A DNA stretch of 64,000 nt from Sporopachydermia quercuum (Eukaryota > Ascomycota > Sporopachydermiomycetes > Sporopachydermiales > Sporopachydermiaceae). The stretch is from the NCBI GenBank assembly GCA_001599295.1, contig BCGN01000004.1, positions 1,241,676-1,305,675 on the forward strand, read 5' to 3'. The notes under the pieces are model-generated. The model saw only the letters and a program-made list of their open reading frames with translations, was not told where the DNA came from and searched no databases. Shown here piece by piece: positions 1-61,089 of this stretch. Positions within the stretch are counted from its first letter, which is position 1. Every line of letters starts with the position of its first letter. The translations under genes and the position numbers were made by a program.

Positions 1-132
1 CTCATTCTTCTCTTTCTAATTAATAAGAAAAGGAAGGAGAAGAAGGAAAAAGAGTAAGAATTCTAATACAATTCTTCAATTTTTCTTAAAATTCATTTTA
101 TTTTACTGAATGATGTATGATCAGACAGCAAC
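1..132 (+). repeat. Palindromic tRNA-associated repeat, copy 1 (cut by window edge)
   Basis: This 132-nt stretch matches 60006..60137 at about 97% (four clear differences plus one N). It holds the centre of the palindrome, with TTCTCTTTCTAATTAATAAG, and the complete right arm; the left arm lies outside the window. The right arm ends at CAGACA followed by GCAAC, 10 nt before the 5' end of tRNA-Ile. No open reading frame is present. It is probably a non-autonomous foldback or MITE-like element, or an inverted pair of solo-LTR fragments. Confidence 0.85.
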
Positions 133-142
133 ATTAACAAGC

Positions 143-59512: not shown

Positions 59513-59826
59513 TCTGTGAGATCAATCTTTTCATGGCTTTTTTCTATTTACTTTGTCACGTAACAACATTTGGTTCGTGAGAGTTACACTTTTTCTTTTC
59601 TCTTTATGTCATATTTAAATCGGGTCTGAACTTCTATGTGTTATCAGATCAATATATAGTATCGTTTGGCTCAACATATATTGATTCTGTTCTATAAGGT
59701 TTTTCCTTTGAGATACTGCGAGTAAACTATACAAAAAAAATATAATACGAAAGAACTCTGATGATGAGATAAATTAATAATATAGCAATAAAAATAATGG
59801 AAGAGTAGGCAAACAANAAAATGATT
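59513..59826. other. Spacer, ATG8 to tRNA-Val
   Basis: A 314-bp AT-rich 3' flank of ATG8 with A-tracts and one N, holding the T-run terminator of the minus-strand tRNA-Val. Nothing else seen. Confidence 0.45.
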
Positions 59827-59900
59827 TGATTCGACCCAGGATCGAACTGGGGACGTTCTGCGTGTTAAGCAGATGCCATGACCAACTAGACCATCGAACC
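59827..59900 (-). tRNA. tRNA-Val (anticodon AAC)
   Basis: A 74-nt cloverleaf on the minus strand. The acceptor GGTTCGA pairs with TCGAATC (one G-T), the stem TCTGC/GCAGA encloses TTAACAC (anticodon AAC), and the T arm has AGTTCGATCC. Downstream is TTTT-N-TT, the likely terminator. The hairpin repeat begins 12 nt upstream of its 5' end. Confidence 0.96.
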
Positions 59901-59912
59901 AACTTTGAAGAT

Positions 59913-60137
59913 GTTACTGTCTGGTCATATATCATTCAGTAAAATAAAATGAAGTTTAAGAAAAATTGAAGAATTGTATCAGAATTCTTACTCTTTTTCC
60001 TTCTTCTCATTCTTCTCTTTCTAATTAATAAGAAGAAGAAGGAGAAGAAGGAAAAAGAGTAAGAATTCTGATACAATTCTTCAATTTTTCTTAAAATTCA
60101 TTTTATTTTACTGAATGATGTATGATCAGACAGTNAC
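59913..60137. repeat. 225-bp near-perfect hairpin repeat between two divergent tRNA genes, copy 2
   Basis: Left arm GTTACTGTCTGGTCATATAT... and right arm ...GATGTATGATCAGACAGTnAC are complementary over about 105 bp with only about four mismatches. The centre is TCTTTCTAATTAATAAG. The body runs TG (59918) to CA (60132), bounded by GTTAC on the left and GTnAC on the right. Nothing is encoded. A second copy starts the window. Both lie just upstream of tRNA genes (12 nt from tRNA-Val, 21 nt from tRNA-Thr). Candidates are a foldback or MITE-type element, or two inverted solo-LTR pieces of an element that targets Pol III genes. The 97% match between copies suggests recent spread or conversion. Confidence 0.9.
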
Positions 60138-60158
60138 AAATAGTAACAAATAGTTAAT

Positions 60159-60231
60159 GCCTTGATGGCCAAGTTGGTAAGGCGTAACACTAGTAATGTT
60201 AAGATCGTCGGTTCGACTCCGGCTCGAGGCA
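60159..60231 (+). tRNA. tRNA-Thr (anticodon AGT)
   Basis: A 73-nt cloverleaf: acceptor GCCTTGA/TCGAGGC (one T-G), stem TAACA/TGTTA, loop CTAGTAA (anticodon AGT), T arm GGTTCGACTC. It is followed by a T6 terminator near 60246, beside an N. Divergent from tRNA-Val across the hairpin repeat. Confidence 0.95.
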
Positions 60232-61089
60232 ATTTGTTTCCCCNCTTTTTTACTACTATTTATTTTTCTCGATCTGAATAGATGGTTGATGTTTGACCCT
60301 CAATCATTATTTGAGAATCGCCTGTCCTTATCTAGGCTATTCAATATTATTGTCGTATCGCCCCTCTGCTGCTACTTATGTTTCTTCTGGTGAGTGCAGA
60401 AGGTTATCTATTACCTGATACTTGAGGTATGGTCTCTTATCTCACGTGGTTTACTTACCTATCATTTGTCGTCAACGGTGATAAAGAAGTAGTTGGCGAA
60501 CAGAGCAAAAATAACAATATTATAACACAGTAATTTTTTAATTCTAGCAACTTTACAGATTTAATCAATAATACTTGGCCATTCATCTTTTTATACATAC
60601 TTTTGAGCTCATATTTATTGCTCAACCACGGTCTTCTTCTTTCCCAACTGTCATTCTGCTGGGTAAGCATTACTTGATGACGTACTCAGTTATAATAACT
60701 TAAACTTCAGTACAAAAAGGGAATCTTGTGAAGCAACAACTTATCAGTTTCATTGTGAGGTAAGCCTGTCTTTTCATACCTGTAAACAATTAGGAGGCAA
60801 TTGATTGGTATTGAACCATTGAACGTTTACAATATATATGTGCACCATTAAGTTGAGCATGAGAACAAGAAAGTGCTTCGCTCTATTTAACGGTATTTGT
60901 TAACGAAGCTTTGCATACNTACAAGTCNTAAGGGTACACCCTGATTTCTTATAATCTATATTCTCACTCAGAGGTTACTGATTCTTTGACAAGATAAGAG
61001 CGATATCCGTTCAAAAGTAATACAAAATATAGAAACAAATCATCTACTGTTTGGCAATTATTTTGATACAAGAAAAGAGCAAAAATAAG
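60232..61089. other. Intergenic, tRNA-Thr / NPC2
   Basis: NPC2 upstream region with an E-box-like TCACGTGG (60442..60449). Open frames at 60196..60393 and 60455..60670 are unsupported; the first overlaps the tRNA. Three N bases occur. Confidence 0.45.

Follow-up and report, generated by a model that had tools for sequence, protein, structure and literature searches.

The 227-bp inverted repeat that separates a tRNA-Val from a tRNA-Thr gene in Sporopachydermia quercuum most probably represents two copies of an LTR-like repeat, of which the ends facing the tRNA genes have been kept; these copies would have arrived in two separate tRNA-targeted insertions and would afterwards have been fused by a central deletion. 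It is likely a functionless remnant left by the ordinary activity of retrotransposons, and its predicted present role is none beyond that of upstream DNA for both tRNA genes. A hairpin of such striking size can arise without any function, as one-way targeting to two outward-facing tRNA genes and one deletion would be sufficient to produce it. The palindrome itself is rather ordinary; greater interest attaches to the apparent one-way integration, and the repeat family is more useful than the palindrome.

A long inverted repeat between two divergent tRNA genes

An initial annotation of the analyzed window, i.e., the whole stretch of 64,000 nucleotides to which coordinates without a contig or locus name refer, had placed a giant hairpin at 59913–60137, between two tRNA genes facing away from each other. 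This hairpin is real and extends one base further on each side (59912–60138, 227 bp). Its arms (59912–60016 and 60034–60138) comprise 105 nt each, as had been stated, lie 17 nt apart and are 95% complementary. Instead of about four mismatches about five were found, one of them being an N at 60135. Over their innermost 54 bp the two arms match without exception. Its location between divergent tRNA genes was borne out as well:

59826–59901, minus strand: tRNA-Val (AAC), found by ARAGORN, 5′ end toward the palindrome
60017–60033, no strand: loop of 17 nt between the 105-nt arms
60159–60231, plus strand: tRNA-Thr (AGT), Rfam tRNA match (60158–60232 in ARAGORN), 5′ end toward the palindrome

When the 64-kb window was scanned for ungapped palindromes, the inverted repeat at 59912–60138 reached a score of 86, with the runner-up scoring 17, and it is far beyond chance. 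Folding of one strand (59916–60134) as RNA yielded −148.2 kcal/mol, compared to −40.5 ± 4.0 kcal/mol for 200 dinucleotide shuffles (z = −26.7), and folding as DNA yielded −101.2, compared to −20.7 in shuffles (z = −26.0), which agrees with the earlier expectation of one long stem. The same holds for the statement that the sequence encodes nothing, as open reading frames overlapping the palindrome have at most 53 codons' worth of amino acids (≤53 aa) and none of them is sizeable. A search of the window with Rfam at gathering scores matched three tRNAs only (His, Thr, and Ile), assigning the palindrome to no known RNA family. The tRNA-Val gene at 59826–59901 was not listed by the Rfam tRNA model, even at E-values up to 1; its identification is based on ARAGORN and on the 74–75 bases that it shares with four other genomic loci.

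Composition of the palindrome

Each arm corresponds to that part of a dispersed repeat of about 268 bp which lies next to the tRNA gene; the repeat is called LTR here for brevity, and its features are described in the following section. The two halves and their immediate surroundings are as follows:

59902–59911, no strand: Val-side spacer of 10 bp from tRNA-Val to the first LTR terminus, read from the sequence
59912–60008, plus strand: left half, LTR positions 1–97 (TGTTACTGTCTG...), toward tRNA-Val, 94/97 identical to the Leu2 LTR copy
60005–60008, no strand: junction TCTC, 4-bp microhomology present in both LTR fragments
60005–60138, minus strand: right half, LTR positions 1–134 reversed, toward tRNA-Thr, 133/134 identical to the Leu2 LTR copy
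60133–60152, no strand: tandem duplication of 10 bp, GTNACAAATA GTAACAAATA, at the right LTR terminus, read from the sequence

Both halves have the orientation relative to their own tRNA gene that is typical of the LTR family, and on either side the arms cease to be complementary precisely at LTR position 1. In the centre, LTR position 97 is joined directly to the inverted LTR position 134. As both fragments share the TCTC at this point, the join reads as a microhomology deletion. The sole position at which the right half is not identical to the Leu2 LTR copy is an N, and the left half differs from this copy at positions 13, 19, and 43. The T at position 19 of the left half is also present in nine other copies, which fits with separate insertions of both halves. 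Gene conversion or a local inverted duplication may be behind the identity of the two arms over their inner 54 bp. The Thr-side spacer comprises 20 bp and thereby lies outside the 9–14 bp observed for 24 other copies (see below), which counts against two insertions unless the 10-bp tandem duplication at 60133–60152 is discounted; this duplication accounts for the excess and leaves 10 bp.

A different route to the same structure would start from a single LTR beside one of the two tRNA genes, which would have been copied in inverted form up to the other tRNA gene when a template switch of the foldback type occurred at the GAGA/TCTC tract. The identical inner 54 bp, the short microhomology at the putative switch point and the unusual length of the Thr spacer would all agree with such an event, and foldback priming at breaks has been proposed as a route to inverted duplications (excerpt of PMC10622511). 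However, a template switch should have copied flanking DNA past the LTR terminus, where the complementarity stops on both sides, and the copied end would have come to lie 10 bp from the second tRNA gene only by chance. We therefore regard this route as unlikely. An assembly artefact, in which two ordinary facing LTRs were wrongly collapsed across their middles, could also have generated the palindrome, and N runs do occur inside or beside other LTR copies of this assembly. Yet, no N run is present at the junction, where the fragments have only 4 bp in common. As an overlap of 4 bp is too short for assemblers to make a false overlap join, an error of this kind is very improbable.

An LTR-like repeat family

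The 16.4-Mb genome was searched in two rounds, using first the palindrome and then one full relative as the query; the copy counts obtained in this way are lower bounds. The repeat was found at at least 38 distinct places (39 matches minus one duplicate, which was the LTR at tRNA-Ile of the window), two of which flank one N run and may be one element. Besides the palindrome, the window contains the following copy:

1–133, minus strand: another LTR copy, positions 1–133, located 9 bp upstream of tRNA-Ile (143–216), the rest running into N just outside the window

Near-complete copies, with a length of 255–271 bp, were found 22 times. Most of these begin with TG (20/22), and often with TGTTAC (15/22), while 21 of the 22 end with ACA. 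At least four of five flanking bases match in ten of the 22 near-complete copies and all five in seven of them, whereas a control with mispaired flanks exhibited a match of at least four of five bases in 4.8%. The other 12 have fewer than four matching bases at their exact ends, with some of them matching after a slide of one or two bases. Two more diverged full-span copies (C2:1058806 and C4:620261), which were kept outside the 22, have no clear duplication; if they are included, the ratio becomes 10/24. Judged from its sequence, the repeat shows the features of a solo LTR, namely TG...CA termini, a near-constant length and a short target-site duplication, and it is probably the LTR of a retrotransposon.

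Two CACGTG motifs are present in 21 of the 22 near-complete copies, and the distal part of the LTR contains a TATATATA run, likewise in 21 of 22. CACGTG is the kind of site that is bound by Cbf1/Pho4-type factors. In one full copy (L030) the two CACGTG motifs occupy LTR positions 218–235, outside the part kept in the palindrome. Neither the CACGTG nor the TATA motifs of the LTR are found in the palindrome.

A search of the genome for retrotransposon proteins revealed no rve integrase and one RVT_1 match, which looks like telomerase. Internal gag-pol sequence of the LTR element was not found among the letters of the assembly, so that its identity as an LTR retrotransposon is based on the features of the LTR. 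One LTR copy gives way to ~5.8 kb of N, which end 10 bp before a tRNA-Pro gene. We infer that a full-length element, hidden by the N and oriented in the same way, would fit with this stretch. Two RVT_2 matches (copia-type reverse transcriptase), one of them with two internal stops, are located on contig C9 at ~836–841 kb; both lie away from any listed copy of the LTR.

The simplest idea of the initial annotation was that the palindrome is a mobile foldback element that reads the Pol III machinery. The first half of this idea stood, as the DNA does resemble that of a mobile element and belongs to a family tied to tRNA genes. The foldback half did not. A mobile palindromic foldback or MITE-like unit which integrates beside tRNA genes, such as a palindromic cDNA formed as a by-product during reverse transcription, would explain mobile-element-like DNA at this site and also the same LTR terminus at both outer ends. 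Nevertheless, 59912–60138 is the only palindromic place among the 38 found in the (lower-bound) copy search, all others being one-way units of ~268 bp or fragments, and no target duplication could be found around the palindrome as a unit (GAAGA and AATAG, 1/5 positions matching). A lack of further palindromic copies had been named in the initial annotation, together with fixation in all relatives, as speaking against its idea, and the first of these two points applies as far as the copy search reaches. The missing duplication is weak evidence when taken alone, as 12 of the 22 near-complete copies also show fewer than four of five matches at their exact ends. Copy search and flanks together led us to discard the foldback element, which we consider extremely improbable. 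No support was found for the second option of the initial annotation, a spacer or boundary element dedicated to the tRNA genes.

The bases GTTAC (59913–59917) and GTNAC (60133–60137) were also considered as a 5-bp duplication around a TGTCTG...CAGACA element. This reading was dropped, as these bases are the LTR termini themselves (TGTTAC and its reverse complement GTAACA), with TGTTAC being the beginning of 15 of the 22 near-complete copies.

Position and orientation at tRNA genes

At 24 of the 38 places the copy is the one nearest to a tRNA gene and starts 9–14 bp upstream of it (median 11 bp), with spacers being 9–18 bp if measured from the first aligned base and 9–14 bp after extrapolation of five copies, aligned from position 3, 5 or 8, to LTR position 1. 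The remaining 14 places comprise the two palindrome halves (10 and 20 bp), nine copies behind another copy, one copy separated from a tRNA-Ala gene by 260 bp, and two copies beside N runs. Assuming 300 tRNA genes, the chance of a random site to lie in such a 20-bp slot is ~0.0004. The copies are thus not scattered without tRNA association, in agreement with the link to tRNA genes suspected at the outset, and the family is located 0–20 bp upstream of Pol III genes, as are Ty3-like tRNA-targeted elements. The tRNA-Val (AAC) gene has 74–75 identical bases at four other genomic loci; within these loci of ~3 kb each no LTR match is present.

The TGTTAC end points toward the tRNA gene in all 24 tRNA-nearest copies, an orientation which was read from old, mostly solo copies. 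Including both palindrome halves, this corresponds to a single insertion orientation relative to the tRNA gene, as in Tj1 of Schizosaccharomyces japonicus. From the sequence of motifs on the strand leading toward the tRNA (CACGTG-CACGTG-TATA), the direction of the LTR is predicted to be the same as in Tj1 as well. The fixed orientation may reflect selection against the other orientation, rather than integration. There is, in our view, an even chance that the host carries an orientation-locked, tRNA-targeted LTR element as a second case beside Tj1, and that this lock turns divergent tRNA pairs into a palindrome factory, with outward-facing insertions giving an unstable inverted repeat whose centre is trimmed to a tolerated hairpin. 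If the orientation of the 24 copies does reflect integration, the family would be a second natural example, in a budding yeast, for studying how an integrase complex on Pol III factors assigns the cDNA ends. A search with isoleucyl-tRNA synthetase pointed to a host that is probably a member of the Saccharomycotina, as the 120 matches listed (of 7,995 scored) showed 55–73% identity, came mostly from budding yeasts where they were named, and included no close relative.

Proposed origin of the palindrome

Two separate insertions are indicated by ends that coincide exactly with the LTR terminus, by the family orientation of each half, by the 10-bp spacer on the Val side (the excess on the Thr side being the duplication) and by the absence of a target duplication at the level of the unit. 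In this process the Pol III initiation complex would have guided an integrase, which would have placed the same element end toward the tRNA at each insertion. At a divergent tRNA pair the fixed orientation would then have set two LTRs tail-to-tail. An inverted repeat of this length would lack stability; its centre may have suffered a break or slippage that was then repaired at the TCTC microhomology. The resulting deletion would have removed the distal parts of both LTRs, including the CACGTG and TATA motifs, and left the 227-bp quasi-palindrome.

Individual steps of this process have parallels. Inverted Ty pairs with spacers of 25–100 bp are recombination hotspots in S. cerevisiae (excerpt of PMC3616911), and slippage or hairpin nicking leads to deletions inside the stems or loops of palindromes (excerpt of PMC4319165). 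An account of a palindrome that stems from a pair of tRNA-targeted LTRs between divergent tRNA genes was not among the titles and abstract openings in the partial listings that were consulted, and no literature on Ty3 LTRs at divergent tRNA genes was found. The orientation rule predicts palindromes of this kind at any close divergent tRNA pair in the genome, and the tRNA loci of this genome could serve as a test ground for the decay of inverted LTR pairs.

An unlikely source of small RNAs

A stem of ~105 bp raises the idea that the palindrome is kept by selection as a source of hairpin RNA for a Dicer/Argonaute silencing of the retroelement. Palindromic loci give rise to much siRNA in Naumovozyma castellii (excerpt of PMC7528652), and these siRNA loci resemble the palindrome in being inverted repeats able to give a hairpin transcript. 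At a loose Rfam threshold, matches to numerous unrelated families of microRNA precursors were obtained on either strand of the stem, all of them below their cut-offs (best match MIR7504, 76.5 bits with a gathering cut-off of 83). While this could be counted in favor of such a source, we read it as a generic hairpin likeness. The genome also encodes an RNase III with double-stranded-RNA-binding domains (621 aa, L060:808–2673, plus strand, open frame). This is the make-up of Dcr1, the Dicer of budding yeasts. However, a single Piwi (Argonaute) match was obtained in the genome (L059:1486–3870, minus strand, contig C4), and its reading frame, although open elsewhere, is interrupted by three stop codons (TGA, TGA, and TAG). 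Based on this sequence the Argonaute gene appears to be broken, unlike in N. castellii, so that the intact Argonaute which a hairpin siRNA locus needs was not found. Moreover, neither of the LTR motifs TATA and CACGTG is present in the palindrome. An RNAi role of the palindrome is unlikely, and its maintenance by selection for this purpose has next to no probability.

Comparison with known elements

The LTR family can be compared with elements known to target tRNA genes. Ty3 of S. cerevisiae (with its sigma LTRs) generates a 5-bp target duplication, and the present family resembles it in this respect as well as in its location just upstream of tRNA genes, which in the case of Ty3 is known to be 0–20 bp (excerpt of PMC7175516). 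Unlike the family described here, Ty3 is able to insert in both orientations, and DGLT-A of Dictyostelium also inserts in either orientation (excerpt of PMC5911963); moreover, a Ty3-type integrase or reverse transcriptase was not found in the genome search. Closer in orientation is Tj1, which inserts 5–11 bp upstream of the mature tRNA 5′ end in one fixed orientation, called "unique" by its authors (excerpt of PMC4600332). Tj1 and the present family, which is known from its LTRs alone, share the close position upstream of tRNA genes and the fixed orientation, but Tj1 is an element of a fission yeast. Regarding fixed-orientation integration of retrotransposons at tRNA genes, the literature search yielded the Tj1 paper only, and no orientation rule was seen in the excerpts of PMC10085805, PMC6053246, and PMC13148404. 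The inverted Ty pairs HS3/HS4 are likewise two retroelements inverted around a short spacer and capable of forming a hairpin (excerpt of PMC3616911). They consist of full 6-kb elements, whereas the structure described here consists of two truncated LTRs fused into a 227-bp palindrome.

At the locus of a tRNA-Leu (AAG) gene (C11:268861–270194), five LTR copies lie head-to-tail upstream of the gene, separated by spacers of 7, 3, 3, and 3 bp. Within this array the identity to one reference copy decreases from 97.8% to 91.6% with growing distance from the tRNA.
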